IMG/VR virus record: IMGVR_UViG_3300043466_003081
Coordinates: 1-59,682 of that record
DNA length: 59,682 nt
Source of the DNA: a virus
Strand: one strand, 5' to 3'
The notes beneath the pieces were generated by a model. That model did no database searches. It was given only the letters and a program-made list of their open reading frames with translations, and was not told the DNA's origin. The stretch's first letter is position 1. Each line of letters opens with the position of its first letter. Both the position numbers and the translations under genes were made by a program. Below, piece by piece: positions 4,084-58,835 of the stretch.

Positions 4084-4421
4084 GATCGACCTAGTTCAAA
4101 GACGTATTTGAAGTAGTCTTTTTCCATCATGTAGCTGTCTCTACACTTAGCAACTTTCCAAGCCTCTTCCCAAGGTTCTAACTTGTTAGTTAGGTAGTAA
4201 TCCTTTGGGCAACAAATTTTGAAAGTTTTAGGATCTGCACGATAGATAGTATGACTTCCAGTAGTCTCAACAATCAAACGACCATCTTGATCCTTACCGA
4301 TGTAATGAAAGTCACCCCAGCCGACAACAGTAAGTGGTTTAGTTAGGTCTAGCATAGTTTTCTCCGTAGCTATAGGTGTGTAATCTCGTTGACAGATAGA
4401 ACAGCTTCCAGATAAACACAT
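4074..4421 (-). CDS. Paralogue 1 of FELGRSWK trio
   Basis: Residues from about 23 onward (MLDLTKPLTVVGWGDFHYIG) align by eye with the next two genes upstream. All three share D-x-x-K/E-P-L at the start, a middle strand region, W-E-x-A-W/F, and an identical C-terminus FELGRSWK. The start is either ATG 4421 (TAATG overlap with the previous gene; adds a Cys-rich MCLSGSCSICQ leader) or ATG 4355 (GGAGA upstream). Function unknown; the tandem arrangement indicates gene duplication. Confidence 0.6.
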   Translation of the reverse strand: MCLSGSCSICQRDYTPIATEKTMLDLTKPLTVVGWGDFHYIGKDQDGRLIVETTGSHTIYRADPKTFKICCPKDYYLTNKLEPWEEAWKVAKCRDSYMMEKDYFKYVFELGRSWK

Positions 4422-4708
4422 TACTTCCAGCTCCTTCCTAGTTCGAATCCACGTTTAAAGATGTACTCCTCAGTACGATCGTCATCTTCCTCGATGCAGT
4501 ATTGATCGAAGGCTTTTTCCCAGTCTGGTTTTACGTTTTGTACCTTCCAAGTATCATCTATAAAGTTTTCTACTTTTCCAGTTTTTATGTTTACTCGATA
4601 AAGCAAGTTATTGTGGGTTAACACAACTACTAGCTCCTTACTAGGCATAGGTCCAATGTAAGCTACAGGATTGCCACGTAACTCTAGAGGTTTTGACCAG
4701 TCAATCAT
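4421..4708 (-). CDS. Paralogue 2 of FELGRSWK trio
   Basis: A 95-residue protein, MIDWSKPLELRGNPVAYIGP through to FELGRSWK, clearly related to its two neighbours in the same order of blocks. It starts with ATGA overlap to the gene at 4705-5190. It is the shortest and most regular member of the family, so it probably shows the basic domain: a beta-rich core followed by a C-terminal helix (WEKAFDQYCIEEDD). Function unknown. Confidence 0.6.
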   Translation of the reverse strand: MIDWSKPLELRGNPVAYIGPMPSKELVVVLTHNNLLYRVNIKTGKVENFIDDTWKVQNVKPDWEKAFDQYCIEEDDDRTEEYIFKRGFELGRSWK

Positions 4709-5190
4709 TTCCAGCTCCTTCCTAGCTCAAAAGCTTCCTTAAAGGTTTGTTCAACACTGTAGTCTTGTTCTGCTGGTTGACCTTTCCATAGTTCGAAAGC
4801 TTGTTTCCACTCTTGTGGTGGGTTAGTTACTTGGACAAACCCTAGTTGACCTTGTACAAGCCCTGTGTCTTTGTAAGCAGCGTAAACTGTGCCATCTTCG
4901 GTTTCTACTACCCACTTGTCTCCTTTAAGATTATTAGTTAGTACTTTACATGAAAGAGGAGCTTGGCCTAGACCCTCGATTCGTAGCGGTTCTTTCCAGT
5001 TTACTGTCATTTTAAGTTTCCTAAATAGTGTATACTTGAGGTTTTTTAACCGACGAACACCTGTATTAGTTTCTATAGTCAGATAGCCGTTAGCGTCTTG
5101 TTTCAGTTGATAACGTTCACCATGTTGAGTCTCAATACAGTCTCCACGGCAAACATCATAAACTATATGGTCTCCATACTTCCAAGTCAT
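4705..5190 (-). CDS. Paralogue 3 of FELGRSWK trio, with N-terminal extension
   Basis: The family domain begins at about residue 61 (MTVNWKEPLRIEGLGQ) and ends FELGRSWK. The first 60 residues (MTWKYGDHIVYDVCRGDCIE) are an additional beta-rich module in the same frame. An AGGAAA about eight bases before ATG 5010 means this may be two proteins, or one fusion with an internal start. The start at 5190 overlaps the upstream stop (ATGA). Function unknown. Confidence 0.55.
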   Translation of the reverse strand: MTWKYGDHIVYDVCRGDCIETQHGERYQLKQDANGYLTIETNTGVRRLKNLKYTLFRKLKMTVNWKEPLRIEGLGQAPLSCKVLTNNLKGDKWVVETEDGTVYAAYKDTGLVQGQLGFVQVTNPPQEWKQAFELWKGQPAEQDYSVEQTFKEAFELGRSWK

Positions 5191-5411
5191 GTTGCTGTGT
5201 AAGTCCCTTCTGGTAGCCCGAGAGCGGTTAACGCTTCTCTTAGCTGTTGGTTTGTCATTTCTACGACTTCATAACGCTCATACTCTTCATTCCACTGACG
5301 AACAAAGACTCCCTGTTCATCGAGTAACCATTCAACATCTTCTAGTCGTCCACTGTCGTCTAGTACTGTTATGATCGACTCAGCGAACACATGCTCTACT
5401 GTGAAGGTCAC
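5187..5411 (-). CDS. Hypothetical acidic protein (74 aa)
   Basis: Starts with GTG at 5411, overlapping the stop of the upstream small gene (GTGA). Sequence such as ITVLDDSGRLEDVEWLLDEQ gives an acidic beta-alpha protein with a C-terminal helix (MTNQQLREALTALGLP). Unrecognised. Confidence 0.5.
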   Translation of the reverse strand: MTFTVEHVFAESIITVLDDSGRLEDVEWLLDEQGVFVRQWNEEYERYEVVEMTNQQLREALTALGLPEGTYTAT

Positions 5412-5545
5412 TTGGTCACCGCCTGATACCAGAACAAACCTTCTTTATAGGTTGCTCCTGTAGTCAACCAGCCTAGACGAGTTAGTTTTGCTACATCAGA
5501 TAGTAGTTTAGATTCTGAGTAAGCACGAAGTACTTGTAGCATCAT
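5408..5545 (-). CDS. Small hypothetical protein, DUF1737-like (45 aa)
   Basis: Frame from ATG 5545 (or 5542) to TGA 5408-5410. The pattern SDVAKLTRLGWLTTGATYKE followed by FWYQAVTK resembles the small V-x-x-x-x-x-x-GW-x-x-GG domain (DUF1737-like), a weak visual match. It overlaps the next gene start. It is the first gene after the strong hairpin at 5582-5599. Confidence 0.45.
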   Translation of the reverse strand: MMLQVLRAYSESKLLSDVAKLTRLGWLTTGATYKEGLFWYQAVTK

Positions 5546-5581
5546 AGTAGCTCTCCGATAAAAAAAGCGAAGTGTAGAAGA

Positions 5582-5599
5582 CCCCCGCCGAAGCGGGGG
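5582..5599. terminator. GC-rich hairpin terminator
   Basis: CCCCCGC, CGAA, GCGGGGG form a seven-pair hairpin. In minus-strand RNA the loop is an extra-stable UUCG tetraloop followed by UCUUCU; in plus-strand RNA it is followed by GUUUUAG. It separates the tiny membrane-peptide genes (5664-6104) from 5408-5545 and probably limits read-through on the minus strand. Confidence 0.6.
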
Positions 5600-5663
5600 G
5601 TTTTAGTCTATTCAGACATTCTTCAGGTATTCTGTGGTGTCTAGTCACAGCCTTTGTTTAGTC

Positions 5664-5780
5664 TCATAGAATAGCCTTGAGCACTTTCCTCAGTACAAAA
5701 CTTAGAACATCAGCTAGCACGTAAGCAGCTAACTTAGAACCTACCGTTACTGCGAGGAATTTTAGTACGAGTGCAATCAA
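5664..5780 (-). CDS. Tiny hydrophobic peptide (38 aa), TTG start
   Basis: Starts with TTG at 5780 after AAGGA. The sequence IALVLKFLAVTVGSKLAAYV then a Lys/Arg-bearing amphipathic helix ends at TGA 5664. One hydrophobic helix is evident. It is the last of four consecutive tiny hydrophobic ORFs. Coding is inferred from the ribosome site and packing; unrecognised. Confidence 0.4.
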   Translation of the reverse strand: MIALVLKFLAVTVGSKLAAYVLADVLSFVLRKVLKAIL

Positions 5781-5795
5781 AGCTATTTCCTTTTC

Positions 5796-5897
5796 TTATT
5801 TCTTATATAGCCTAATTAATACAAGTAGAACTATTACTATCACTAGCAGCATAGGCCAAATAGCTGCCCAGTATAAGCTAAGCATTAAACTTAACAT
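5796..5897 (-). CDS. Tiny membrane peptide (33 aa)
   Basis: ATG 5897 lies inside the 3' end of the preceding ORF, with GAGGAG about 11 bases upstream. Almost the whole peptide (MLSLMLSLYWAAIWPMLLVI onward) is hydrophobic, with a basic tail RLYKK, so a single transmembrane segment with C-in topology is likely. Unrecognised. Confidence 0.45.
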   Translation of the reverse strand: MLSLMLSLYWAAIWPMLLVIVIVLLVLIRLYKK

Positions 5898-6012
5898 AGT
5901 GTAAAAGCTCCTCTAGCTTTTTGAGTTTTTTTAATTCAAGCAAAAACTTGGCTACAGTGACCAAGCAGAGTATAGTCAGCGGGATAGTTGGCACAAGAAC
6001 TACTAGCTGCAT
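5878..6012 (-). CDS. Tiny membrane peptide (44 aa)
   Basis: MQLVVLVPTIPLTILCLVTV is a transmembrane helix, followed by a Lys/Leu/Glu amphipathic helix (FLLELKKLKKLEELL). The start at 6012 overlaps the stop of the upstream peptide, and the end overlaps the next start by 20 bases. A TM helix plus charged helix recalls small regulators of membrane enzymes or holin antagonists, but that is speculation. Confidence 0.45.
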   Translation of the reverse strand: MQLVVLVPTIPLTILCLVTVAKFLLELKKLKKLEELLHYVKFNA

Positions 6013-6104
6013 TTTTTACTCGCAATTGCTAGCAGTACGAAGGTAGCTTGTAGTGCTATTTTTAGTAACATAAAAGTACCTAGTACCATTAGCAGTGTTT
6101 GCAT
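6003..6104 (-). CDS. Tiny membrane peptide (33 aa)
   Basis: ATG 6104 has AAGGAG at good spacing. The peptide MQTLLMVLGTFMLLKIALQA continues as a hydrophobic helix and ends with KKCS. It is the first of the run of four tiny hydrophobic ORFs downstream of the 6116-6400 gene. Unrecognised. Confidence 0.5.
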   Translation of the reverse strand: MQTLLMVLGTFMLLKIALQATFVLLAIASKKCS

Positions 6105-6115
6105 TTTGTTTCTCC

Positions 6116-6400
6116 TTACTTAAGGGTTGGTGGAGTGAAGCCTGGATAGTATCTGTCTAAAAACTTCGAAGTATTTCTCAACTTTTCGTTAAGTAAGCAA
6201 ACTTGAGCTTCAACAGAGTCATTACTCTCACGAACACAGCATGAATCATACTCTCTTATCAAACTATAGAAGTTATTTAGCCAAACTTCTTTCTGTTTTT
6301 CTTTTAGTTGTTTTTCTAAAGCTAACTGTTTTCTTTTTTCTCGATAGTAAGTTATCGCTGTAACAGTAATAAAGAGAAGTATAAAAAACAAGGTCAGCAT
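6116..6400 (-). CDS. Membrane-anchored coiled-coil protein (94 aa)
   Basis: The start at ATG 6400 is chosen for GGAGG upstream and TAATG coupling to the gene before it. Residues 1-18 (MLTLFFILLFITVTAITY) are a transmembrane anchor, followed by a basic coiled helix (KRKQLALEKQLKEKQKE) and a Cys-containing region (DSCCVRE). The layout resembles spanin-like or superinfection-exclusion proteins, but no family is recognised. Confidence 0.5.
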   Translation of the reverse strand: MLTLFFILLFITVTAITYYREKRKQLALEKQLKEKQKEVWLNNFYSLIREYDSCCVRESNDSVEAQVCLLNEKLRNTSKFLDRYYPGFTPPTLK

Positions 6401-6618
6401 TATAGCCTCCGTCCAGTGAAGGGTTTTTGTTCTGAAGCTATCTCGTACAATCTTTGCCAAGCTGCTTCGGTTGAAGCATAGTATACCTCAGCCCAGACGA
6501 ATCCGGACTGAAGTTTTCTGTTACAGACAAACTGTCCAAAACGAAACTCTGTTTGAAGAGTCCGATCGGTCATCCAAGTAGACCAAAGTTTCTTCAACTC
6601 TTCTTCTGTGAGTTCCAT
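6400..6618 (-). CDS. Hypothetical protein (72 aa)
   Basis: Acidic N-terminus MELTEEELKKLWSTWMTDR, then an aromatic strand region (FVWAEVYYASTEAAW). Unrecognised. ATG 6618 overlaps the 3' end of 6594-6755 by 25 bases, and its stop overlaps the next start. Confidence 0.55.
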   Translation of the reverse strand: MELTEEELKKLWSTWMTDRTLQTEFRFGQFVCNRKLQSGFVWAEVYYASTEAAWQRLYEIASEQKPFTGRRL

Positions 6619-6755
6619 TTAGGCCTCCTAAAAGTTACTGCTAGAGTCTCATCATGAAACTTTTGCAGCCAACCCTTTTTAAGTAGCAGGTCATAAACAG
6701 TCCGGTTCACCTGTAGGAGATTACCGGGTGATAGCTCTGCGTAGTATCGTACCAT
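6594..6755 (-). CDS. Hypothetical protein (53 aa)
   Basis: Begins MVRYYAELSPGNLLQVNRTV. ATG 6755 is preferred over 6791 because GAGAGG lies just upstream. A short basic protein ending KWNSQKKS, unrecognised. It overlaps the 3' end of the previous gene by 35 bases. Confidence 0.5.
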   Translation of the reverse strand: MVRYYAELSPGNLLQVNRTVYDLLLKKGWLQKFHDETLAVTFRRPKWNSQKKS

Positions 6756-6918
6756 TGATTTCCTCTCTTTCAGGTTCGTAGTCTTTGTCAATAGCTTCTA
6801 CACACAGACGACCATAACGGCTTGTCTGCTCTCTTGAAAACTGTTTTGTTTCATCATAAGAAACAACAGCTCCGGTTTCAGCCCAAACAACTTTGGCTTC
6901 GTGGTTAATTGCGAACAT
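6721..6918 (-). CDS. Hypothetical protein (65 aa)
   Basis: Begins MFAINHEAKVVWAETGAVVS. ATG 6918 follows GGAGAAGAAG; the leader also carries the CCCCCA...GATGGAG pattern seen before the genes at 6980 and 7645. Unrecognised. Acidic, soluble. Confidence 0.5.
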   Translation of the reverse strand: MFAINHEAKVVWAETGAVVSYDETKQFSREQTSRYGRLCVEAIDKDYEPEREEINGTILRRAITR

Positions 6919-6947
6919 CTTCTTCTCCATCTCATGGGGGTTATAGT

Positions 6948-6969
6948 TGAGCAGTTAGTCGCTTGCTCA
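6948..6969. repeat. Inverted repeat after 6980-7168 gene
   Basis: TGAGCA (6948-6953) and TGCTCA (6964-6969) form a six-pair stem with a 10-base loop, 10 bases past the stop of the minus-strand gene at 6980. It is a diverged relative of the CTGAGCAGG hairpins at 7206-7221 and 7626-7639. Confidence 0.4.
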
Positions 6970-6979
6970 GGCCAAGACT

Positions 6980-7168
6980 CTAGAGAGCCATCACCAGTTC
7001 GTAAACATAAGACCCTGCAAGAGTCTCAGTCACGTCTTCATGCAGATCAAGAGCTTTTTGCAAAGCTTCTTGTTTATTACCTGCCATGAAGTAATCACTT
7101 GTCATAAAACCGTTTTCACCGTCATCACTGGTGAAAGCCAGTTTAACAAAGTACGGCATTGCTCGCAT
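6980..7168 (-). CDS. Hypothetical protein (62 aa)
   Basis: Begins MRAMPYFVKLAFTSDDGENG. ATG 7168 has GGAGG directly upstream; ATG 7159 (MPYFVK) is an alternative. The sequence YFMAGNKQEALQKALDLHED suggests a beta-beta-helix fold with a repeat-like helix. Unrecognised. Flanked on both sides by the hairpin elements of this region. Confidence 0.5.
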   Translation of the reverse strand: MRAMPYFVKLAFTSDDGENGFMTSDYFMAGNKQEALQKALDLHEDVTETLAGSYVYELVMAL

Positions 7169-7193
7169 AGGAGCCTCCATCGTTTGGGGTTGA

Positions 7194-7220
7194 TGAGCCT
7201 TTTAACGACCTGCTCAGGTC
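7194..7220. repeat. Hairpin repeat, copy A (27 bp)
   Basis: A 27-base segment identical, except for one base, to 7613-7639. In minus-strand RNA it reads CGACCT-GAGC-AGGTCG (six-pair hairpin at 7206-7221) followed by TTAAAAGGCTCA. It lies five bases past the stop of the 7227-7418 gene and runs into the leader of the next gene, so it may be an RNA processing, stability or weak termination element. Confidence 0.6.
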
Positions 7221-7226
7221 GGCTTA

Positions 7227-7418
7227 CTATTTTACTTCGTAAGCACGAAGTTGAGCTTTTAACGACTCAATAGAATCGTTAGCTGCTCTGAGGCTGTCTT
7301 CTAAATGACCAACTTGATCATAAAGACGACTAGACTCCTCATAGTACTCCAAATACATCTTGTACCAATATTTCCCATTTAGGGTATAGTACAAGTTATT
7401 CCGAAGTGTCTTCAGCAT
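7227..7418 (-). CDS. Small coiled-coil protein (63 aa)
   Basis: ATG 7418 follows AAAAGGAG. The N-terminal half is Tyr-rich (NLYYTLNGKYWYKMYLEYYE); the C-terminal half is a heptad helix (LEDSLRAANDSIESLKAQLR). Unrecognised; likely dimeric. It sits between the triple stem-loop region and hairpin copy A. Confidence 0.5.
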   Translation of the reverse strand: MLKTLRNNLYYTLNGKYWYKMYLEYYEESSRLYDQVGHLEDSLRAANDSIESLKAQLRAYEVK

Positions 7419-7503
7419 GGTTTACTCCTTTTGCTGAGGGGGTCGAAAAAAAAAAAGTAAAGTAAGCAGTTTATTCACTTGCTTGGGTGATGTCGTGGGT
7501 ATA

Positions 7504-7581
7504 CTTCATAGATCCTTATCCACGCTATGAAGAACTCCGCATGCTCCCGGAGTTAACGAGTTGGCCTCTGTAGTTGCCAAC
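7504..7581. ncRNA. Three consecutive stem-loops (possible structured RNA)
   Basis: Within the gene-free stretch 7419-7644 three perfect inverted repeats follow one another: CTTCATAG/CTATGAAG (7504-7511, 7525-7532), AACTCCG/CGGAGTT (7533-7539, 7548-7554) and GTTGGC/GCCAAC (7560-7565, 7576-7581). On the minus strand the block follows hairpin copy B and precedes a T-run (about 7446-7456). It could be a small RNA, a processed leader or a stacked terminator. Not a tRNA: arm sizes and loops do not fit. Confidence 0.4.
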
Positions 7582-7612
7582 AAAGCAGTATTATTTTAGC
7601 TTTTAGGGAAGG

Positions 7613-7639
7613 TGAGCCTTTTAATGACCTGCTCAGGTC
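7613..7639. repeat. Hairpin repeat, copy B (27 bp)
   Basis: Second copy of the 7194-7220 element, differing at one base (T for C in TTAATGACC). The hairpin GACCT-GAGC-AGGTC (minus-strand reading, 7626-7639) begins five bases past the stop of the 7645-7911 gene, the same spacing as copy A. Confidence 0.6.
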
Positions 7640-7644
7640 TTCTG

Positions 7645-7911
7645 TTAGTTAACAGCTACTGCTTCGTCTCCAATCGGAGATTCCACAATATCTGCTTCCT
7701 TAGTTTTTAGCGCTTCCAGTTTACGGTCGATAATCACCAGTTGATCGGTAATTTCACCAACAGCCTTGAAGGAAACGGTCTGCACTACTTCAGCTACACC
7801 TTTAGCTACAGTGGCTGCAACACCAATGTAAACAAAAGGAACTGACACAGTACCAGCAACAAACCCAGCGCCAAACTGAGCAACAGACAGGGCGGCATTA
7901 CGGACTTTCAT
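7645..7911 (-). CDS. Membrane-associated hypothetical protein (88 aa)
   Basis: Begins MKVRNAALSVAQFGAGFVAG. ATG 7911 has GGAGAG just upstream. A glycine/alanine-rich hydrophobic region (residues 12-45) could span the membrane once or twice, followed by an amphipathic helix (DQLVIIDRKLEALKTKE). It is the first gene of the minus-strand array, next to the divergent promoter region, so probably highly and early expressed. Unrecognised. Confidence 0.55.
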   Translation of the reverse strand: MKVRNAALSVAQFGAGFVAGTVSVPFVYIGVAATVAKGVAEVVQTVSFKAVGEITDQLVIIDRKLEALKTKEADIVESPIGDEAVAVN

Positions 7912-17867: not shown

Positions 17868-20800
17868 ATGAGTCTAACCCAAGAATTATTTGACAGACAA
17901 ATTGAGCACTTGCTCACAATTAGACGTTATCAAGATGCTGCAAACTTACTTATTGATAAAGCTTCAAACCGTCACCGTGGTTTTTTAAAGAAAATTCTTG
18001 GAAAAGACTTAAAAGATAAACTAGCACTAGAGCGTGAGGTTACAAGGCATGTCCAAGAGCTTCACGCACTAGGAGCTAATGCTGTTTCTGACTTCATCGG
18101 AGCAGAGTTAGACTTCCAAACTAACAATCTTAGACGTTCTGTTGGTGACTTTTACAGTGTTAACTCTGTTAACCGCGGACAACTTGCTAGAGAAATCACT
18201 AGCCAGCCTCTCAAGCTCTTTAACGAGACCAAGTCTCATCCCACTATGGTAAAGAGTTTTGAGAACGTAGGCGGTGCAGAACTAACACGAATCAATCTTA
18301 CAATTCGTAGGGGCATTGCTGCAGGCGAAGTCGAAGACGACATCATCAAGAAAGTACTACAGACTACAAAGTTAACTGACAACCAAGCCAAGACTCTTGT
18401 TACTACTCACATGACTCAAGCAGACAACATCGTCAAGCAAAAAGTACTTGAAGCAAATAAAGAAGTTTACTCTGGTTATGTCTTTACAGCTATTCTTGAC
18501 TCCCGTACTAGTGAAATCTGTTCTCGTTATGACAACTTGTTCCAGTCAGCAGACAACGTAAAAGTTCGTCCTCCATTACATTGGCGTTGCCGTTCTGTTC
18601 TTGTTCCTGTTCTAAAGTCTAAGAAAGAAATCGCTCGTTCTACAAGTGACAGGCTAAACAAAGAACGGCTAGCTGCTGTAGCTGACAACAATTTGTCAGG
18701 TGCATTACCTATTAAAGAGACTTTTAGCGAGTGGTTGATCCGTCAACCTATGGCAACAAAAGTAGACAAGTTAGGTTCAGAGGAACGAGTAGCTCTCTTT
18801 GAAAGAGGCGCTCTTGGTTTAACAGACTTCTTTAGCAATTTAGGTCGTCCTCTTGATATTAGTGCTGTAAGAATTAAAGATAATCTTCTTACTTTCTTTA
18901 GCCCTGTTTCTCTTCGTGACAAAGATCCCCAAGCTGCTTTTCTTGATGTTGCTAGACCTTTTCAAGTAGTTCGTTCAGCACAAATACAAAAGGATCTTGC
19001 CGACCTCATTGTTGCAGATACTATGAATGGTAACTCAGCGATTAGTTTAACAGACTTCCGCGGTACTAGTTTAGGCGGTAAACGTGGTGTTAGACAAGCA
19101 GCTAACAACGAGTTTGATCCTCGCAATCAAACTTTTGATCCTTTTACAGGAGAAGTACGTTCTACTCTTTACTATGATCCAGACTTCACACTTCTTCGTG
19201 AACGTATTGACTACATGAAAGAGTCTAAGTTACTCGATCGTAATCAGAAACAGTTTATCGAAGACTTTACTAACAGCTTAGAAGATCGAGTGTCTGTAAA
19301 TCAGCAAACAGTAGTAGTAGAAAACCTTCGTGTTCTATTTGAACGCTATCAAAAGAACCCAGAACCTTGGGAAAATTTTGTAGCTACCGTTCGAGCAGAA
19401 ATGAATTTCTCTACAATAAACGTTTCAAGGTTACTTGATCGTCGTTCAAGAGCACGTTCAGAATTGTTCCTTGGTTTTAAGGGAGATCCTAACGAACCTG
19501 CAGTAATGATTCAAGGTCAAACACTAGCTATTTCAAAACTACATGCTGAAAAGTTAGAATATGAACGCTATGTGAAAGACTGGGCTTCAACTGAGGGTAT
19601 CAAGCTAGCTCGCAGTGTTTACTACCGTGGTAAAGCACCTTGGACTTCTTATTTCTTTGGGCCTAATGAGAAACCAGAAGGTTTGTTTGAAACACTAAAA
19701 GACAGTTTTATTAAACGTTCTATTCGTGCTACTTTTTACAAAGACGATCCTATTGGTTTTTATACTCGTTTCGGTAAAACTCCAGACAAATTCTCTAAAA
19801 TTGTTAAAAAGTACTTGAAAAAGAAAGTTACTCCTGATTGGTTAACTATGTTTCTTGAGATCAAGGAAGAAGGCTTTGCCGACTTCATTACAAGAACTAT
19901 TCGTGAAGAATATCGTTCTATTGTAGACCTGGAATTCTTTTATAAACTAAGGCGTTCTTTAACGCTAGAGCGTTTGTTTGTTCAAAAGTTAGCTGAGCCT
20001 ATCGAAGGTGAAGTTACTCGTTCTATGTCAAGGCTGATGGCAGTAGTTGCTGAAGGCACTACAACAGACTATGACTCACTAGCTATTAGCCTAGGTAAGG
20101 AGTTAAAGTCTACTTGGAATCCTATTTACCCTATCTTTGGTTCTTCTCTTGAAGACTACCATGAGCAAGGGTCTAAGATTCTAGAACTAATGCGTCAACA
20201 AGGGCTTATCAGAGTAAACTCTCGTGGTGTTACTCGCAGAGCTACTACAGACTTAGACACAGGTCGTGCTTCAGGAAACTGGAAAGATACTGTTTCAAGA
20301 GAAGTTCAAGTTATTGATCCAGTAATGCTTAAACTACAAGACTATAATCGTCGTATTGAACTGTCTAATCGCCTAGGTGTAGATCGTCCTGAAAACAAGT
20401 ATTTTGTCGTTCCCGGTAAAAAGACTTATGTAGATGCTCGTGGGCGTGATACTGGTGTTCCTGTTGTAACTCGTTCAGCTTTTTCTAAGTTCGATGAAAA
20501 ACAAATTGATGGCGATTTCGCCGATATGTTAAACCACACAATGTCTTTCCGTTATGAAGTAGACGACGAGTTTACTAGCTTTATGGATGACTTAGTTAGA
20601 TTTAAAGACCAGAGAGGTAAAGCGGCTTACTATGACTCAATTAACGGCTTTCGTGAAGAAATTATCAGGCGAGGAGACCAAGGCTATGGTCTTATGGAAA
20701 CTATCAGGTACTATCGGGCCAATGGAAAGACTTTCACCGTACATGCCCGTATTGACGGTCGTGGCCGCGTATATTACAACGGGTATTTAACACCTACTGG

Positions 20801-22391
20801 TGGTGAAGTAGTTCGTCCTTTCTTAAACACAGCTCATGCTGTTTCAATGACTCCTCAAGGTTTAAACCAGCTACGGATTCAAATGGCAGCTGTTATAGGT
20901 CCAGGTACTGAAGCACTTACTGATGCTGGCAGACTAGCTATCTTCAAGCGTAATGAAAAGTTTATTCTTGAGGTAGGGCAGTTACTTAGCGCAAAAACTC
21001 AAAGAGAACGTCGTATTAGAGAGTTTCTTGAACATCCTTTAATTCAGTCTACAGATGCTGCTGAAGTAGCTAAGATTGCTCGCTTTAGTCTTGAGTACTA
21101 TCGTATTCATAAGCATACAGGTGGTGATTTTACTCCTGCAAAGCTAAAAACTTATAAGTCTAAACTACTTGGTGAAGCTGACGCTTCTGCTTCAGGCTTA
21201 CAAATGATTGCTCTTGCTACAGGTGATCGTGGTGCTGCTATTACCTCTAATGTATTGCAGTCTATTAAGAAAAACAGAATCTATGACCTTGTTGCTCAAG
21301 ATACTGTTAGTGATCCTCGTTTTCAAGATTTGATGCAAGAATTAAATCTTAACTTGACTTGGGAAGATATCAATAAAGCTGCAAAGTATCAGGTTATGAT
21401 CTCACTGTATGGTGCAGGTAAAGCAGGACAAGCAGCTCGAGTTGCTCTTGAGTTGTCAAAAGTACTTCGTAAGCAAGATGTGCTTGTTACTACCAGAGCA
21501 GAATATTTAGCTTTGACTAAACAAATTGACGTCAAAATTAAAGAAGCTAAGTCTTTAGGTGCAACAGACACTCAAGCTGACCTCTTAGCATTAAAGAAAG
21601 AAGTCCTTGAAATTGCTAACAATCCTGATAAAGCTGTTAGCGATGCGTTACTTGCTGAAGCAGCAGATTTTCACCCAGATCTTTCTGACTTTATTTACAA
21701 GTACTCAAATAGGAGAGGTCCTCAAGTAGGTCCTGACCACTTCAAAAGAATTGCTGCTATTATGTCTGAAAAACTCTCAGAACGTGCACCTGTTACTGAT
21801 AACTACATTGACTTTTGGAAAAGAGTTGGCCAAGATTACGCACGATCAACTAAAAAGGTTCGTATTCCTTGGGTTACTTTTGATGGTAAACTACTATACC
21901 AAGACTATCGACCAAAGATCCAACAAGAAATTCGTTTCTACGATCCTCAATCTAAACGTTACATTCGCAACATTTATCAAATGAATGCTGAAGATGGTAA
22001 GCTATTAGGTAAAGGGCAAGTAGGCGATGTTCGACTGGGTCTAGGTGTTAACGGTACTCACGCAGACGATGCTAGTGTTGTTAGACAGCTACATCTTTGG
22101 GGTCGTCGTACTGGTATTCCAACTTCAACTATTCATGACGCTGCTGCTTTAAATATCAATGAAATCGATCCTCTCTTAGCAGAAGTTCGAGATATCTACA
22201 AGCGTTTTGCTCAATATCCAAAAGTTAAAAAGACTCTTGATGCTCTTCGTGAAGAAGGGTTACCTGACGAGTTGTATTTTAAATACTTAAAAGAAGCTGA
22301 AGACCTTGGCTACTTTGATCCTAAATTTAAACCAGAAGAAATTACAGCTCCTTTAAAAACCGGGTATGACTACTACGGTTGGGGGCCATAA
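17868..22391 (+). CDS. MuF head protein fused to T7-like single-subunit RNA polymerase
   Basis: Two parts are visible in 1507 residues. Residues about 1-260 are a MuF minor head protein: LDSRTSEIC (D211-C218) and PPLHWRCRS (P235-S243), the hallmark Cys/His signature. Residues about 560-1507 carry the single-subunit RNA polymerase core: D963-G-R965-G-R967-V-Y (T7 D421-R425), motif A D1105-A-S-A-S-G-L-Q (T7 D537), motif B K1173...Y1181-G (T7 K631/Y639), and motif C H1423-D1424 (T7 H811-D812). The T7 R627 position is N1169. The gene lies between the fibre chaperone and the scaffold, in the head operon. I infer that the polymerase is packaged in the virion and injected, as for N4 vRNAP. Start follows AGGAG. 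No frameshift or stop interrupts it. Confidence 0.9.
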   Translation: MSLTQELFDRQIEHLLTIRRYQDAANLLIDKASNRHRGFLKKILGKDLKDKLALEREVTRHVQELHALGANAVSDFIGAELDFQTNNLRRSVGDFYSVNSVNRGQLAREITSQPLKLFNETKSHPTMVKSFENVGGAELTRINLTIRRGIAAGEVEDDIIKKVLQTTKLTDNQAKTLVTTHMTQADNIVKQKVLEANKEVYSGYVFTAILDSRTSEICSRYDNLFQSADNVKVRPPLHWRCRSVLVPVLKSKKEIARSTSDRLNKERLAAVADNNLSGALPIKETFSEWLIRQPMATKVDKLGSEERVALFERGALGLTDFFSNLGRPLDISAVRIKDNLLTFFSPVSLRDKDPQAAFLDVARPFQVVRSAQIQKDLADLIVADTMNGNSAISLTDFRGTSLGGKRGVRQAANNEFDPRNQTFDPFTGEVRSTLYYDPDFTLLRERIDYMKESKLLDRNQKQFIEDFTNSLEDRVSVNQQTVVVENLRVLFERYQKNPEPWENFVATVRAEMNFSTINVSRLLDRRSRARSELFLGFKGDPNEPAVMIQGQTLAISKLHAEKLEYERYVKDWASTEGIKLARSVYYRGKAPWTSYFFGPNEKPEGLFETLKDSFIKRSIRATFYKDDPIGFYTRFGKTPDKFSKIVKKYLKKKVTPDWLTMFLEIKEEGFADFITRTIREEYRSIVDLEFFYKLRRSLTLERLFVQKLAEPIEGEVTRSMSRLMAVVAEGTTTDYDSLAISLGKELKSTWNPIYPIFGSSLEDYHEQGSKILELMRQQGLIRVNSRGVTRRATTDLDTGRASGNWKDTVSREVQVIDPVMLKLQDYNRRIELSNRLGVDRPENKYFVVPGKKTYVDARGRDTGVPVVTRSAFSKFDEKQIDGDFADMLNHTMSFRYEVDDEFTSFMDDLVRFKDQRGKAAYYDSINGFREEIIRRGDQGYGLMETIRYYRANGKTFTVHARIDGRGRVYYNGYLTPTGGEVVRPFLNTAHAVSMTPQGLNQLRIQMAAVIGPGTEALTDAGRLAIFKRNEKFILEVGQLLSAKTQRERRIREFLEHPLIQSTDAAEVAKIARFSLEYYRIHKHTGGDFTPAKLKTYKSKLLGEADASASGLQMIALATGDRGAAITSNVLQSIKKNRIYDLVAQDTVSDPRFQDLMQELNLNLTWEDINKAAKYQVMISLYGAGKAGQAARVALELSKVLRKQDVLVTTRAEYLALTKQIDVKIKEAKSLGATDTQADLLALKKEVLEIANNPDKAVSDALLAEAADFHPDLSDFIYKYSNRRGPQVGPDHFKRIAAIMSEKLSERAPVTDNYIDFWKRVGQDYARSTKKVRIPWVTFDGKLLYQDYRPKIQQEIRFYDPQSKRYIRNIYQMNAEDGKLLGKGQVGDVRLGLGVNGTHADDASVVRQLHLWGRRTGIPTSTIHDAAALNINEIDPLLAEVRDIYKRFAQYPKVKKTLDALREEGLPDELYFKYLKEAEDLGYFDPKFKPEEITAPLKTGYDYYGWGP
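21580..21600 (+). other. Coding near-copy of the dispersed 21-bp element
   Basis: Within the polymerase gene, ACCTCTTAGC then ATTAAAGAAAGA resembles the intergenic element, with the TA/AT dinucleotide order swapped. It encodes DLLALKKE, so it may be chance; listed because it lies 1.06 kb before copy 2. Confidence 0.2.
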
Positions 22392-45634: not shown

Positions 45635-46057
45635 ATGTATCAACTAGGCAACAAATCTAAAGACAAGTTAAAGGGTGTTCATCCTAACTTAGTGCGAGTT
45701 ATTGAAAAGGCTATTGAGCTATCCTCTCAAGACTTTATGGTATTAGAAGGGTTACGTACTCCTGAACGTCAAGCAGAGCTTTATGCTCAAGGTCGTACTA
45801 AACCAGGCCAAGTAGTTACTTGGACACTAAAATCAAGACATTTTGTTCAAGCAGATGGTTGGGGTCATGCAGTAGATATTGCTCCGTATCCTCTTGACTG
45901 GAATGATTTATCAAAGTTTGAAGCTATTGCTGATGCAATGTTTCAAGCTTCAAAAGAACTTGGTACTCCGATTCGTTGGGGTGCTGACTGGGACCAAGAT
46001 GGTCGTCCTCGTGAAAAAGGCGAAACAGATAGTCCCCATTTCGAGCTAGTAGTGTAA
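45635..46057 (+). CDS. Endolysin: L-alanyl-D-glutamate peptidase (VanY/M15 family)
   Basis: 140 residues with the M15 zinc peptidase pattern: EGLRTPERQAELYAQGRT, then SRHFVQADGWGHAVDIAP (candidate ligands H69 and D81), and the C-terminal DSPHFEL with H135. It cuts the cross-link peptide of peptidoglycan at lysis. No signal peptide, so it relies on the holin. The stop overlaps the holin gene start (TAATG). Confidence 0.88.
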   Translation: MYQLGNKSKDKLKGVHPNLVRVIEKAIELSSQDFMVLEGLRTPERQAELYAQGRTKPGQVVTWTLKSRHFVQADGWGHAVDIAPYPLDWNDLSKFEAIADAMFQASKELGTPIRWGADWDQDGRPREKGETDSPHFELVV

Positions 46058-46266
46058 TGAAAACTTACAAGCGTGAAGCGGCTATAGCAATCATCTTTTA
46101 TCTTTGTTACTTGGGACTATACGGTCGTGTAGAAGCTCTAGAAGTTATCGCTTGGCCCTTCATGCTTTTTGTTGGAGCGGCCTTTGGTATGGATTGGGCA
46201 GGTAAACAAACTAACCTAGTATCAAGAAAGAGAGAATACACAGATGATGAGCTTAATAACAAATAA
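46057..46266 (+). CDS. Holin-like membrane protein (69 aa)
   Basis: Two hydrophobic helices are visible (residues about 7-22 IAIIFYLCYLGLYG and 28-48 EVIAWPFMLFVGAAFG) with a charged C-terminal tail (SRKREYTDDELNNK). This fits a class II holin in the cassette endolysin/holin/spanins. It overlaps the endolysin stop and the next gene by 23 bases. Confidence 0.65.
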   Translation: MKTYKREAAIAIIFYLCYLGLYGRVEALEVIAWPFMLFVGAAFGMDWAGKQTNLVSRKREYTDDELNNK

Positions 46267-46489
46267 ACTTATGATAGGAGCGGTTATTCTTCTTCTTAGC
46301 CTAGCAAGTGTAGCAAGCTATTACTTGTACAACAAAGGTTTTAAAGCTAAAGAGCAAGAGGTAATCATACAACAACAAGAAACTTACATTCAAACTAGGA
46401 GAAGGATCGATGAAGCCACTAGTGATAACCGTTCTGTTAACGATGCTCTTGACAGGTTGCGGGCTAGGCAAAAATCTAGGAGTAAATGA
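46244..46489 (+). CDS. i-spanin (Rz-like) inner-membrane subunit (81 aa)
   Basis: N-terminal transmembrane anchor (LMIGAVILLLSLASVASYYL) followed by a long charged helix (KEQEVIIQQQETYIQTRRRI). The Rz1-like lipoprotein gene starts inside it in another frame, the usual embedded arrangement. Together they span the periplasm and fuse inner and outer membranes at lysis. Confidence 0.75.
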   Translation: MMSLITNKLMIGAVILLLSLASVASYYLYNKGFKAKEQEVIIQQQETYIQTRRRIDEATSDNRSVNDALDRLRARQKSRSK

Positions 46490-46631
46490 GAAAGGACTAT
46501 GTGACGGTTTGTCACCTAAAATAGACCGATTAAATGACGCTCTTTTGATTGACGGTGGTCAACAAACTATCCTTGCTGGTGAAGATGTAATTATAGGATT
46601 TGATGCAGGATGTTATGGACCAGTGGATTGA
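46410..46631 (+). CDS. o-spanin (Rz1-like) outer-membrane lipoprotein (73 aa)
   Basis: Signal peptide with lipobox MKPLVITVLLTMLLTGC17 (L-T-G-C), so the mature protein is acylated at Cys17 and sorted to the outer membrane. It overlaps the i-spanin by 80 bases in a different frame, as in lambda Rz/Rz1. Longer than minimal Rz1 and not obviously proline-rich, with two more Cys. Confidence 0.75.
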   Translation: MKPLVITVLLTMLLTGCGLGKNLGVNEKGLCDGLSPKIDRLNDALLIDGGQQTILAGEDVIIGFDAGCYGPVD

Positions 46632-48553: not shown

Positions 48554-49381
48554 TTATTTAGTCTCCCAGTTGTTTAGAAATACCCAGTGTTGGATTTGAC
48601 GAATACCCTCATACAAGGATTCTTCGAAGTTAGGTTTGCTGATTTGTTTTTCAGCATGAGCACCCAGTAGTTTTCTTACTACTTCTGCTCCCCCGTTTGC
48701 AGACATGCTGTTTAACAATTCTACAGGACTAGAGAACTCTTTTACTGTATTCTCTTTTAAAGTCAAAAAGAGATCAGCCCACTCAATAATCTTGTCTGCT
48801 GTTTGTGGAGTACGTAAGGCTCGGAACTCAAGAGAACCAAACTTAGAGACACTAACAAGATTCATTGCACCATAGCGCAAATTCTCGTTAGAGAAAATAC
48901 CACCATCGGCTAGGAAGTCTCGATGCGTAAGACAACCCATAATACCTGTGTTAACATAGTCTGCATCTGACAATCGCAAACAGAACAAATTACCTTGTCG
49001 TTCTTCTCCTGCATCTTCTGTTAGAAGATTCTCTAGACAGTAATAAGCAGCCATTACAGTGAACAACTGCTTGACAGTAAGTCGTTGGCAGTTGACATGT
49101 ACGTGAACACCTGCTCGCATAGAGTCATTGACTTTACCGTCTAGGTATAGGTAAAGATTCCTGACTTCTGCAAAAGCTACTTCTTTAGCTAGAGGTTTAG
49201 AGAAGACATACTCTTTAGCTTCACCACGTAAAGAACCATCATTCAGAACTTTCCAATAGCTATCTGGAATTTGAATGGGTAGTTTTTGATTTGACTCTAC
49301 CTCAACTTCAATTCCAAGATCACCTTCTTTAAGAGAGTGACCGAATACTTCGTATACTTTTTTAGCGAGAAAGTTTGTCAT
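48554..49381 (-). CDS. Amidoligase (COOH-NH2 ligase, GS-like fold) 1
   Basis: 275 residues. GIEVEVES at residues 23-30 gives the E-x-E pair, AGVHVHVNCQ the H-x-H pair and LEFRALRTP the late Arg, all typical of glutamine-synthetase-like amidoligases (Amidoligase_2). These activate a carboxylate and attach an amine. The stop lies two bases from the ATP-grasp start, so it is part of one operon. It may modify the cell wall or a host or phage protein. Confidence 0.85.
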   Translation of the reverse strand: MTNFLAKKVYEVFGHSLKEGDLGIEVEVESNQKLPIQIPDSYWKVLNDGSLRGEAKEYVFSKPLAKEVAFAEVRNLYLYLDGKVNDSMRAGVHVHVNCQRLTVKQLFTVMAAYYCLENLLTEDAGEERQGNLFCLRLSDADYVNTGIMGCLTHRDFLADGGIFSNENLRYGAMNLVSVSKFGSLEFRALRTPQTADKIIEWADLFLTLKENTVKEFSSPVELLNSMSANGGAEVVRKLLGAHAEKQISKPNFEESLYEGIRQIQHWVFLNNWETK

Positions 49382-49967
49382 TGCCGACCTCTTTTGTGAA
49401 CTCTTCTTCGATAAAGTTAAACGCAGTGTACAGCTTAAACTTATCGTCTTTTGTTAGATCACCAACAGTAAACCCTTTATAAAGCAACTTGTACTTACTA
49501 CTTAGAGCAAAGTTTTTGCTAAAAGCAATATCACCATTACATTCTTCAGCTAGCTCAATAACCGTGTCAAAGCTTTGGTATCTATTCCTCAGACACTTGT
49601 CGACACTCTTTGCGTTACTCTCTAGCCAGTTTTCAGAGAGGTTGTTATAAGACCCATTACGAACATGAGACAACTGAGAAGAACGTAGACCTTGACGAAA
49701 GTCTCTCCGAATCGGAAGACGACTAATAAACATAGCTGTTCCCGAATAAGAGTCATTAACATAACCTAGCTTTCCAATAGAGAAGTCTAGGTCTTTAATG
49801 TGCAACTTAACTTCGTTTCGGTCTTCATCAAAAGCAATGATTGTAGCTTTATCTAAGTCATTAGTCTTAGAGTAGATATCAACAATCTTATAGAAGCCTT
49901 TTTCTTTACCTTTCATGTAACTAGAGTTAAGCCTTGATCTTGCATAGCTTGCATCGTTATTGAACAT
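49362..49967 (-). CDS. Hypothetical protein between two amidoligases (201 aa)
   Basis: Basic protein beginning MFNNDASYARSRLNSSYMKG, with SGTAMFISRLPIRRDFRQGL. It has no catalytic motif that I recognise. It overlaps amidoligase 1 by 20 bases and the start overlaps amidoligase 2's stop by 11 bases, which strongly implies a shared function with the ligases. Confidence 0.6.
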   Translation of the reverse strand: MFNNDASYARSRLNSSYMKGKEKGFYKIVDIYSKTNDLDKATIIAFDEDRNEVKLHIKDLDFSIGKLGYVNDSYSGTAMFISRLPIRRDFRQGLRSSQLSHVRNGSYNNLSENWLESNAKSVDKCLRNRYQSFDTVIELAEECNGDIAFSKNFALSSKYKLLYKGFTVGDLTKDDKFKLYTAFNFIEEEFTKEVGNDKLSR

Positions 49968-50802
49968 ATTGTGCCTTTAGGTTGTTAAAGATAGCTTCAC
50001 CAAGATAAGCCCAATTACTATTAATAATTTCCTGTGAAGGAAGGTTAATAGCTCCTTTGAAGAAGGCTTGGTTATTAGCACTCTTCCTCTGCTTTTTATC
50101 CATCAAGCTTGTAATCGCTTGAATAGTAGTGTCGTACACAAAACCAATTAACTCGTCAGACTTCAACCATTGATTAGAACCAGAGCGATACTCCATGCCA
50201 TAAGGTTTAGGACGGAAAGCACCCGCAGCACCGTAGATAGAACGACGAAGAGCATCTTTGTCCCAAGCAAGAGAAGCTGCACCCATGTAGTAGTCCATTT
50301 CCGCGGCTAGAGCAGCACAAGCCTCGATATGCTTAGGGTCTCGAGTAGGTAACCCAGCAGCCCAACCAATGTGCACATGACCACCTGCTGATCGAATGTT
50401 AGGATCAGGTAGTTTAGGACGAGGATTCTTGTCTAGAGTATAAGCATTGTAGTCAGGATCACAACCTAGCTCAAGAGCTTCTTCAGGTTGAACAGCCATG
50501 ATCTCTGGAGAGAACTTGGCAATAGATGAAACTGACAGACTGTGACCTTCTGGCAGCATTTCCTTTAGTTGAGTTAGTACATCATTAATACGATAGATGA
50601 AGTCCCTTTTATTGGTGGCAGGATCGATACCGAACTCGAGAGCCATACCATCTACCTGAACCATACCGTTACGTACTTTGAGTGGTTCTGTTTTTGTTCC
50701 GGGAATCATTCCGTGAGCACTAACAAACTCACCTTTAGCATTAGTAACAAATACTTCAGGGTCACAGCCAATAAGGAATTCTACGTTATTGATGATAGTC
50801 AT
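49957..50802 (-). CDS. Amidoligase (phiEco32-type COOH-NH2 ligase) 2
   Basis: 281 residues with IGCD14-P-E16-VFV near the N-terminus, VDGMALEFGIDPA, GGHVHIGWA and GMEYRSGSNQWL, the signature set of the phage COOH.NH2-ligase family (GS superfamily). D14/E16 and the H-x-H pair should bind metal and ATP. It is a different branch from amidoligase 1, so two ligation steps, or ligation plus editing, are likely. Confidence 0.88.
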   Translation of the reverse strand: MTIINNVEFLIGCDPEVFVTNAKGEFVSAHGMIPGTKTEPLKVRNGMVQVDGMALEFGIDPATNKRDFIYRINDVLTQLKEMLPEGHSLSVSSIAKFSPEIMAVQPEEALELGCDPDYNAYTLDKNPRPKLPDPNIRSAGGHVHIGWAAGLPTRDPKHIEACAALAAEMDYYMGAASLAWDKDALRRSIYGAAGAFRPKPYGMEYRSGSNQWLKSDELIGFVYDTTIQAITSLMDKKQRKSANNQAFFKGAINLPSQEIINSNWAYLGEAIFNNLKAQYVQ

Positions 50803-50819
50803 TTCCTAAGTCCTTCTAG

Positions 50820-51905
50820 TTAGGAAGCGTGTTTCCATTCTTTAGAACATGCAAGGCAGATAGGTGTTTCTCTATCCATCCACTTTACAAATCCTTCTAC
50901 ATGATCTTCGTATTCCAAGTCTGTTTGGCACATAGCGCAACCGTCTCGAGCATCTTTGTCAAACTCCTCTTTAGTGATGTAGGATCGATCCAACCAACCG
51001 GAGGCTGGACGAAAGGGTTCTTTTGATTTGTTAACCTCGCTAGCCCAGTTAGGCTTTTTGTGGTTTAACAATTTGACATGCTTATTAGCAAAGGTAGTTA
51101 CAACGCCCGTATTCCGATCCCCATAAGAACTGTTGGTAGGCTTCACTACTAAAGGGGCTACGGAGTTTACTTTTACCTCCTCGATTTTGTTGTCACCTAG
51201 AACAATCTCTACATGCTCGTTTACTGGAAACTCTTTAATGTTTTTAACAAGTTCACCGAGTTTACCTTTTACAAGAGCTACTCTTAGAATCCACTCCTCA
51301 CTAGCATAAGCATAAACTGTTTTAGTTTCATTGTGAGTTAGAAACAAAGATCGTTCTTTGTTGCGGTAGATATTGAAGGTTTTCTTTTCAGAATCCCACC
51401 AAGTCATTGCCGCTGCACCAGTAACAGTATCCATGATCTTCTTGATAGACCAACCTTTGCTTAGAGCAAAGATTAGCTTTTCAGAATCAGTATGACCAGA
51501 GATAGCTTCTCCTGTTGGAAGAACCAGCAGCCCTCCGCTAATAGTTCCATTATGACAACCAGTGATTGAACCATGATGGAAAGGGTGAGCATTAGTAGCA
51601 TTAACTGCACCAATAGTAGCTGCGCGGTTATGCCCCATTAGGAAGTCAAACCGTTCAGTTAGTTTGTTATGCAGCATACCTTTATGGTCAAACAATTCTG
51701 GAAACTTACGTGTCAAGTTAGAAGGATGACCTTCTGTTTTAGCAACAATTACTTGTGAACGATCTTTCTTACCTACGAAAGACTTACGAAGAGCAATGCC
51801 CGTGGAGTCTTCTCCTCGAACAGTATCTAGATGTAGCATCCATTTGAATGCTTCAAGATGTAGAGTGGAGAGATTTGCTCCCACAATACCGACTAGTCCA
51901 CACAT
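50820..51905 (-). CDS. Class II glutamine amidotransferase (GATase-6 type)
   Basis: MC2GLVGIVG gives the N-terminal nucleophile Cys2 after Met removal, then LDTVRGEDSTGIAL, GHNRAATIGAVNATNAHPF and HNGTISGG, the Ntn-glutaminase core of GlmS/PurF-type enzymes. It frees ammonia from glutamine for the amidoligases. The last 45 residues hold two CxxC pairs (DGCAMCQTDL and ICLACSKEW), a probable zinc ribbon that could dock a partner. Confidence 0.88.
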   Translation of the reverse strand: MCGLVGIVGANLSTLHLEAFKWMLHLDTVRGEDSTGIALRKSFVGKKDRSQVIVAKTEGHPSNLTRKFPELFDHKGMLHNKLTERFDFLMGHNRAATIGAVNATNAHPFHHGSITGCHNGTISGGLLVLPTGEAISGHTDSEKLIFALSKGWSIKKIMDTVTGAAAMTWWDSEKKTFNIYRNKERSLFLTHNETKTVYAYASEEWILRVALVKGKLGELVKNIKEFPVNEHVEIVLGDNKIEEVKVNSVAPLVVKPTNSSYGDRNTGVVTTFANKHVKLLNHKKPNWASEVNKSKEPFRPASGWLDRSYITKEEFDKDARDGCAMCQTDLEYEDHVEGFVKWMDRETPICLACSKEWKHAS

Positions 51906-52498
51906 TATAGCATTCCTTGGAATTTATGTTTCATTAGTTCAGCAAAGAAGTCTACCCCGTTTTCAGGGCAGTTTGAGTACTCTGGATGGTATTGTACACC
52001 TAAGAATCCACAGCCAGTAGCTACTACTACCTCTGTAGAGCCTTCATGGCTTACGTACACTTCATCTGCATAGTCTACCTCATGGATAGGTACACACTGG
52101 TGATGAGAAGAGTTGATAGTTAACCCTTCCCATCCTTCGATTTCTTCCTCATCCATAGCTAGTAGGCGATGTGGTGTTCCTGCATGACCTGAGATATGCT
52201 GGATCAGTGTACCTCCATTAGCTACGTGTAACAACTGTAAACCTCTACAAATACCTAACATTGGAATCTGCTTTAGTTTACCTGCAATAACTGTGCAGAA
52301 GTCTTGGTAGTCAACGTCACTGTCAGAGTAGGTACCTCTAAGTTTTTCCGCATTATACAGAGAAGGAGAAACATCATACCCTCCTCCAAAAACAATGAAG
52401 TCAGGTGTTTCCTTATCACTAACCTCTTGATAACCTAGTTTTCGTAGAAGACTAGCTACACCATAGTCGAAGCGACTCATTAGAAACTTAGCTGCCAT
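51905..52498 (-). CDS. Class I glutamine amidotransferase-like hydrolase (peptidase C26 type)
   Basis: Core residues: F-G-G-G-Y-D-V-S-P, LGIC84RGLQLLHVANGG (nucleophile elbow), and FLGVQYHPEYS (H-x-E). This is the gamma-glutamyl hydrolase/PuuD-like group. ATG 52498 (AGGTG upstream) is preferred over the GTG at 52507. It could free ammonia or cleave a gamma-glutamyl product made by the ligases, so synthesis and removal may be encoded side by side. Confidence 0.85.
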   Translation of the reverse strand: MAAKFLMSRFDYGVASLLRKLGYQEVSDKETPDFIVFGGGYDVSPSLYNAEKLRGTYSDSDVDYQDFCTVIAGKLKQIPMLGICRGLQLLHVANGGTLIQHISGHAGTPHRLLAMDEEEIEGWEGLTINSSHHQCVPIHEVDYADEVYVSHEGSTEVVVATGCGFLGVQYHPEYSNCPENGVDFFAELMKHKFQGML

Positions 52499-52499
52499 G

Positions 52500-58389: not shown

Positions 58390-58835
58390 CGTAAAGCTTT
58401 CTTGTAAGTAAACTCGATAGCCTCATAACCAAGCTTGGTATAAAGCAGATCTAAGTTACTCATCTTACTAGTGAAAGACATAACTACAAAATCTGCTTTA
58501 GCTTTTTCTTTAGCCCAAATTTCAAAGTCTTTAAGCATAGCTAGGCTCTTACGCCCTCGGTACTCAGGCTTTACATACCAACCTAGCTCTGAAGCAAGTA
58601 CTTCATCAAAGTAAGGTCCTTCGCTAGCAACACCTACTAACAACCCTACTACTTTAACTTCATCTTTCAAAACAATGCAGTAAAAGTTCTTATCGTAAAC
58701 CAAAGAAGCTTCTAAAATATTTCTTAGCTTAGCTCGATTAAACTTTTTAGAAGTTCCATAAAGGGTGTTAAACTCAGTAGCTAAGTCTAAAGTAGCTTCA
58801 ATGTCGAATACTTGTAATTTTTCTAGTTGAATCAT
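58386..58835 (-). CDS. GNAT-family acetyltransferase
   Basis: 149 residues. LGWYVKPEYRGRKSLAMLKD is the acetyl-CoA motif A (R-G-x-x-x-x-x-L), with KADFVVMSFTSKMSNLDLLY and YTKLGYEAIEFTYKK at the end. Substrate unknown; a phage could modify host proteins or its own product. It starts at the stop of the helicase gene (58835). Confidence 0.75.
   Translation of the reverse strand: MIQLEKLQVFDIEATLDLATEFNTLYGTSKKFNRAKLRNILEASLVYDKNFYCIVLKDEVKVVGLLVGVASEGPYFDEVLASELGWYVKPEYRGRKSLAMLKDFEIWAKEKAKADFVVMSFTSKMSNLDLLYTKLGYEAIEFTYKKALR

Follow-up and report, generated by a model that had tools for sequence, protein, structure and literature searches.

A run of four tiny hydrophobic ORFs at a variable site in a tailed phage, read as a candidate exchangeable cassette of membrane micro-proteins

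Small, variable and hydrophobic ORFs are a known kind of phage gene, and gene callers readily overlook proteins of under 45 residues. Small novel phage gene families were reportedly described by Fremin et al. 2022; judged by title, these are likewise short, unannotated phage genes, and by the same title alone the locus described here differs in being a run of four with a content that changes between relatives. Holins, antiholins and spanins are short, hydrophobic and often overlapping, and so belong to the same size class, but the lysis genes of the phage considered here lie elsewhere and on the other strand. TisB-like type I toxin peptides resemble one of the four ORFs (ORF4) in size and cationic amphipathic character, although no homology was found and ORF4 sits in a phage operon context. 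Another described system, HK97 gp15, is said to be a phage superinfection-exclusion membrane protein. P22 SieA is a phage superinfection-exclusion membrane protein according to the abstract of PMC10883804, and the products of T4 imm and sp prevent DNA injection and peptidoglycan degradation, according to an excerpt of PMC11436027. Going by that excerpt, Imm and Sp come closest to our locus in function, the proposed likeness being exclusion at the envelope by phage-encoded proteins. T4 Imm and Sp, HK97 gp15 and P22 SieA are tested proteins that act singly, whereas here there are four short ORFs, read from sequence and with no match. A literature search over titles and the starts of abstracts returned nothing about tiny membrane ORFs occurring in runs in phages, which is not proof of absence.

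The window, by which we mean the whole 59,682-base stretch of DNA that was analysed, encodes the genes of a tailed phage: a portal, tail proteins, ribonucleotide reductase (RNR), PhoH and an endolysin, together with a protein that has head-morphogenesis and RNA-polymerase-like parts. The best named relatives of an 812-aa tail protein, among the matches listed, are DSS3_PM1 and DSS3_VP1 (~34% identity), and the taxonomy line of DSS3_PM1 reads Naomviridae; window positions 4400-7700 had no DNA match in the phage collection. Long ORFs run rightward over 8014-46851 and leftward over 7923-519 and 59629-46917. A distant relative (L028) holds homologues of 5187-5411, 1400-1840 and 58835-59629 in that order, on one strand and within 4 kb, and since the neighbours of both window ends are thereby kept together, the genome is probably circularly permuted and its two leftward parts a single block. 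RNR, amidoligase-like and DnaB-like genes are also in this leftward, non-structural block, within which the micro-ORF site is found. A leftward cluster at 48554-52507 encodes two proteins of amidoligase type and two of glutamine-amidotransferase type, which may serve to modify a surface or DNA.

The original prediction described four consecutive tiny hydrophobic ORFs between 6104 and 5664, and they are indeed there, with 33, 44, 33 and 38 codons lying end to end on the minus strand:

6003..6104, minus strand: ORF1, 33 aa, ATG start, one hydrophobic helix, AAGGAG ribosome site
5878..6012, minus strand: ORF2, 44 aa, ATG start, one hydrophobic helix and a charged tail
5796..5897, minus strand: ORF3, 33 aa, ATG start, strong single span, RLYKK tail
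5664..5780, minus strand: ORF4, 38 aa, TTG start, cationic amphipathic/hydrophobic helix

From the overlaps of 10 nt (ORF1/ORF2) and 20 nt (ORF2/ORF3) and the 15-nt spacer between ORF3 and ORF4, the four look translationally coupled. Ribosome sites had been predicted for some of them, and reading by eye bears this out: AAGGAG serves ORF1, AGGAG stands 10 nt before ORF3 and inside ORF2, and AAGGA stands 7 nt before ORF4, while no clear site was seen by eye before ORF2.

The reading that we favour, with a probability of roughly 0.5, is that the four ORFs belong to an exchangeable, probably early cassette of micro-proteins that would act at the host inner membrane in takeover, exclusion or counter-defence. 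What we infer here is insertion into the membrane, the topology, the kind of function and the early timing, the last from gene order alone. The cassette, lying in a leftward and probably early operon, would supply several one-helix micro-proteins from one message, on which overlap and close spacing would carry translation from one micro-ORF to another. The peptides would associate with the host inner membrane, spanning it with a short N-terminus outside and a cationic tail inside, except that ORF4 would perhaps rest on its surface. There they could act early, by binding or perturbing host membrane proteins, by blocking the DNA entry of a second phage, or by countering a membrane-based defence. 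Early action at the inner membrane is favoured because the site belongs to the non-structural block and because its content differs between relatives; the two roles first proposed, host takeover and superinfection exclusion, would both fit that location, the changing slot content and lysis genes that lie apart. In the region, promoter-like sites numbered 9, against 12.2 in shuffles, and so are not in excess; no promoter was identified. The virion polymerase of P23-45 transcribes pre-early genes in the account excerpted from PMC10770324, and by analogy transcription at phage entry is possible for the polymerase-like fusion in the window. This fusion is a 1507-aa protein (17868-22391) that combines a head-morphogenesis part with an RNA-polymerase-like one at 957-1196 (PHROG 414, E 3.4e-20); it is perhaps a virion RNA polymerase, and the DxDxD motif was not found in it.

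A module of membrane micro-proteins, as originally proposed, holds as a set of small hydrophobic proteins, with peak 19-residue Kyte-Doolittle means of 2.01, 2.53, 2.94 and 1.82 for ORF1 to ORF4; it holds less well as a set of spanning ones. On a rough custom insertion-energy score only ORF3 is clearly favourable (-3.4), ORF1 (0.3) and ORF2 (0.7) being marginal and ORF4 (2.2) unfavourable, and membrane insertion is confidently predicted for ORF3 only. The peptides carry net charges of +3 to +4, none of them ahead of the helix, which by the positive-inside rule suggests an N-out/C-in topology. ORF4, modelled from a two-sequence alignment as one helix over 2-37 (pLDDT 84), has an 18-residue hydrophobic moment of 0.52 and a net charge of +4, and may lie on the membrane surface rather than span it. 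These properties of ORF4, a cationic amphipathic helix of 38 aa and the most conserved of the four ORFs, also speak for a different function, in which the peptides (ORF4 above all) would be growth-inhibiting, type I toxin-like membrane peptides that dissipate the proton-motive force for host shutdown or the exclusion of rivals. We regard this as unlikely: the moments of ORF1-3 are lower (0.29-0.32), and none of the four has a family match above cut-off.

Part of the case for a cassette lies in what surrounds and replaces the four ORFs in related phages. The flanking genes are these:

6400..6618, minus strand: 72-aa soluble protein, upstream slot boundary, 50-77% identity over 5 distinct relative alleles
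6116..6400, minus strand: 94-aa single-span protein with a long helix, directly preceding the four ORFs, C-terminal YYPGFTxPTL motif
5408..5545, minus strand: 45-aa soluble protein, downstream slot boundary, 53-91% identity over 5 distinct alleles
5187..5411, minus strand: 74-aa soluble protein (dn74), conserved, 70-100% identity over 5 distinct alleles

The 72-aa protein has no PHROGs match. The 94-aa protein is the probable first gene of the cluster and starts at ATG 6400, a longer TTG frame from 6460 being less likely; relatives of it (81-90 aa, 31-37% identity) precede the slot in four of the five distinct alleles, none having been found in L011/L012. Its AlphaFold2 model (pLDDT 86) has helices at 2-54 and 61-84, its family matches are all sub-threshold (LapA_dom, for example, at 15.3 bits against a cut-off of 28), and a Foldseek comparison of the model with viral structures gave 0 matches at E up to 0.001. 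The 74-aa protein has matches in 23 phage records (E up to 1), mostly of roseophages, and in both roseophage records examined its relatives stand in DNA-metabolism blocks; no match was found in the bacterial genomes scanned with the dn74 alignment.

In scans of viral contigs, 18 different contigs gave loci. The slot is spanned by eight of them (L003, L004, L016, L007, L008, L010, L011 and L012), and as L004/L016, L007/L008 and L011/L012 are identical over it, these represent five distinct alleles. Among the ten others, seven end short of the slot (L002, L005, L006, L009, L013, L014, L015), in L027 and L028 nothing but the 74-aa gene is kept at the site, and L037 matches the 72-aa gene weakly, at 35%. 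In seven of the eight spanning contigs (four of the five alleles) the slot ORFs have no detectable similarity to ORF1-4 while the flanks are conserved, and the content is mainly hydrophobic in five of these contigs and mixed in two. L004/L016 have a single hydrophobic ORF of 61 aa. L007/L008/L010 have ORFs of 20 aa (with a lipobox-like LIGC), 28, 50 and 60-66 aa, the 50-aa one moderately hydrophobic (KD19 1.46) and the other three clearly so; between L008 and L010 they differ by 2, 3, 7 and 3 bases, too few for a selection test. L011/L012 have about seven ORFs, about three of them short and hydrophobic and about four apparently soluble, and in L027/L028 soluble small ORFs precede the dn74 gene and there is no such cassette.

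A bolder form of this reading, which we offer tentatively and think less likely than its opposite, would make the site a dedicated membrane micro-protein slot with a fixed place in the early operon, delimited by conserved genes and, in most of the relatives, a UUCG hairpin too. Related phages would trade complete sets of unrelated one-helix proteins there, a combinatorial kit fitted to rival phages or to the membrane proteins of the host. The distinctive part of the locus is the run of four together with the differing sets at one address, and a site with differing sets of tiny proteins would offer a direct and cheap screen for new membrane-acting phage functions such as exclusion, counter-defence and host shut-off.

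One relative, L003, does carry ORF2, ORF3 and ORF4, with amino-acid identities of 73%, about 67-68% and 95%, and from the ORF2 start to the ORF4 stop (349 nt) it aligns to the window free of gaps. Nei-Gojobori estimates against L003, with the same changes replayed at random sites (5000 replays per ORF), gave dN 0.197 and dS 1.348 for ORF2 (dN/dS ~0.15, permutation p 0.0002), dN 0.210 and dS 1.085 for ORF3 (~0.19, p 0.005), and dN 0.025 and dS 0.360 for ORF4 (~0.07, p 0.0002). Changes at codon positions 1/2/3 number 14/2/21, 9/4/14 and 3/0/8 in the same order. Since these frames recur without indels and at such low dN/dS, ORF2-4 are very probably genes, and the synonymous-site signature whose absence would have spoken against the original prediction is present in this comparison. 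In both genomes stops interrupt the two remaining forward frames; a single reverse frame, which runs antisense to ORF3, stays open in each of them, at 64% amino-acid identity against 68% for ORF3. The 20-nt ORF2/ORF3 overlap is preserved in L003, and the 15-nt spacer before ORF4 is identical there. ORF2-4 show that clear purifying selection is possible on such tiny genes.

Conservation of all four frames, which had been suggested as a check, extends to ORF2-4 and stops at ORF1: no relative of ORF1 was found in the viral-contig scans, including an exact degenerate scan for its start, and the same kind of scan for the ORF2 and ORF4 starts returned L003 only. Where the window has two copies of AAAATGCA, 92 nt apart, L003 has a single one in their place and lacks ORF1, as expected of gain or loss between short repeats. 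The cassette may also be mosaic, because ORF2 and ORF3 (dS above 1) are more diverged than ORF4 (0.36) or the 72-aa gene (0.49). This divergence, the lone occurrence of ORF1 and the differing content of the slot would all suit accessory ORFs that are almost neutral and, in most hosts, play no selected role. That view is hard to square with a dN/dS far below 1 in three ORFs and with the overlap and the ORF4 leader that L003 preserves, and we hold it to be quite unlikely.

Peptides of this size and hydrophobicity would also fit holins and antiholins, and a second lysis or lysis-timing set (holin, antiholin, spanin-like) could draw on the 94-aa protein, one span and a long helix in its AlphaFold2 model, as an i-spanin-like partner; in L008/L010 the 20-aa ORF with the LIGC sequence comes after the relative of that protein. 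The phage already has lysis genes at 45635-46631, however:

45635-46057, plus strand: endolysin (PHROG 465; M15 peptidase at the Pfam cut-off)
46057-46266, plus strand: two-span holin-like protein (by eye)
46244-46489, plus strand: Rz-like i-spanin (weak match, E 0.004)
46410-46631, plus strand: lipoprotein-like ORF, overlapping the i-spanin gene (by eye)

The micro-ORFs are not linked to these: the endolysin has holin-like and spanin-like genes of its own beside it, and the micro-ORFs are transcribed in the opposite direction. Lysis genes were sought in nine records of the 18 contigs found, five of which are fragments of 8.8-24.9 kb; the endolysin is in four, the i-spanin is in the same four, and the other five are the fragments. 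Two of the four span the slot, both with other slot content: G003 (L004), with endolysin and i-spanin at 99% and 96% identity, and G007 (L011), at 59% and 51%. Near-identical lysis genes thus coexist in G003 with one unrelated 61-aa ORF in the slot, and none of the five proteins (the 94-aa protein and the four ORFs) has a PHROGs lysis match. With the late lysis genes elsewhere and conserved in a relative that has a different slot, we reject lysis as the main role, and a second lysis set is improbable.

In 5000 dinucleotide shuffles of the 570-nt stretch, with a hydrophobic ORF defined as 33 aa or more and a KD19 of at least 1.8, 4793 had no such ORF, 205 had a chain of one, 2 had a chain of two and none had three or more. 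In the genome itself there is one chain of five, made up of the frame 6460-6116 and the four ORFs; 57 of 60 whole-genome shuffles reached one, three reached two and none went further. A synonymous codon score against the phage's other leftward genes was 0.04, -0.05, -0.06 and 0.08 for ORF1 to ORF4, where 129 in-frame windows had a mean of 0.10 (sd 0.09) and off-frame sequence -0.08 (sd 0.11); ORF2 and ORF3 are not separated from off-frame sequence, and the conserved 94-aa gene also scores -0.07. Chance ORFs in a non-coding stretch, an idea to which codon scores that do not discriminate and the lack of comparative support for ORF1 lend something, are very improbable overall and are rejected for ORF2-4 by the shuffles and by the coding pattern of their substitutions.

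Profile searches are weak for proteins so short, and for none of the four was there a family match above cut-off: PHROGs (E up to 0.01) gave no match for them or for the 94-aa protein, NCBIfam (E up to 1) gave none, PADLOC (E up to 1) gave none to known anti-phage defence models, and the phage collection gave no protein match for ORF4 at E up to 10. A Pfam Phage_coatGP8 match for ORF3 was sub-threshold (E 0.1) and is not taken as evidence; the 28-aa ORF of L008 has a weak PADLOC match to ZorB (E 0.031). The cassette of inner-membrane micro-proteins is supported by a chain of four far above chance, by purifying selection on ORF2-4 and by the kept overlap and leader, and is weakened by the roughly four soluble ORFs of L011/L012, by L027/L028, which have no cassette, by selection being estimated from a single relative, and by the insertion score, the codon usage, the empty family searches and promoter-like sites no more frequent than in shuffles.

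The strong UUCG hairpin that the original prediction placed after the four ORFs is real:

5582..5599, minus strand: UUCG hairpin, CCCCCGC-UUCG-GCGGGGG, 64 nt after ORF4

Its stem is the only all-GC one among the stems listed. In the window and in L003, L004 and L008, a UUCG hairpin whose stem differs among them folds where the slot ends; by eye, L010 shows the same hairpin sequence and none was seen in L012. It is not a textbook leftward terminator, because the leftward T-run starts about 15 nt past it, and a pattern scan finds it terminator-like on the plus strand only; any role given to it is a guess. A repeated element was considered and rejected, as the motif downstream of the hairpin occurs once in the window. 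Rfam gave no family at gathering level, and a weak match to RsmY next to the hairpin (21.3 bits, where the cut-off is 57) was judged to be chance.

Other RNA features were seen in the leftward block. A candidate structured RNA lies at 7446-7581 on the minus strand of the window, at 5387-5525 and 6695-6790 in L008 and at 6697-6790 in L010; a T-run follows it, and Rfam gave no family for it. Read by eye, two of its stems have changed between the window and L008 and are still paired, GTTGGC/GCCAAC against GCTAGC/GCTAGC in one and CTTCATAG/CTATGAAG against CTCAATAG/CTATTGAG in the other. A repeated leader motif, GACCTGAGCAGGTC..AAAAGGCTC, able to form an H-type pseudoknot and with stems that vary among relatives, stands before small leftward genes (window 7639 and 7221, minus strand; L010 5643; L008 6164; L012 5744 and 5406). 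A scan of the first 8 kb for pseudoknot-like patterns gave 9 matches, this motif accounting for 2, where 30 shuffles gave 2.5 on average and at most 8. The same leftward block holds two further short hydrophobic ORFs on the minus strand, of 51 aa (1234-1389) and 60 aa (1819-2001), both of which carry ribosome-site-like sequence.
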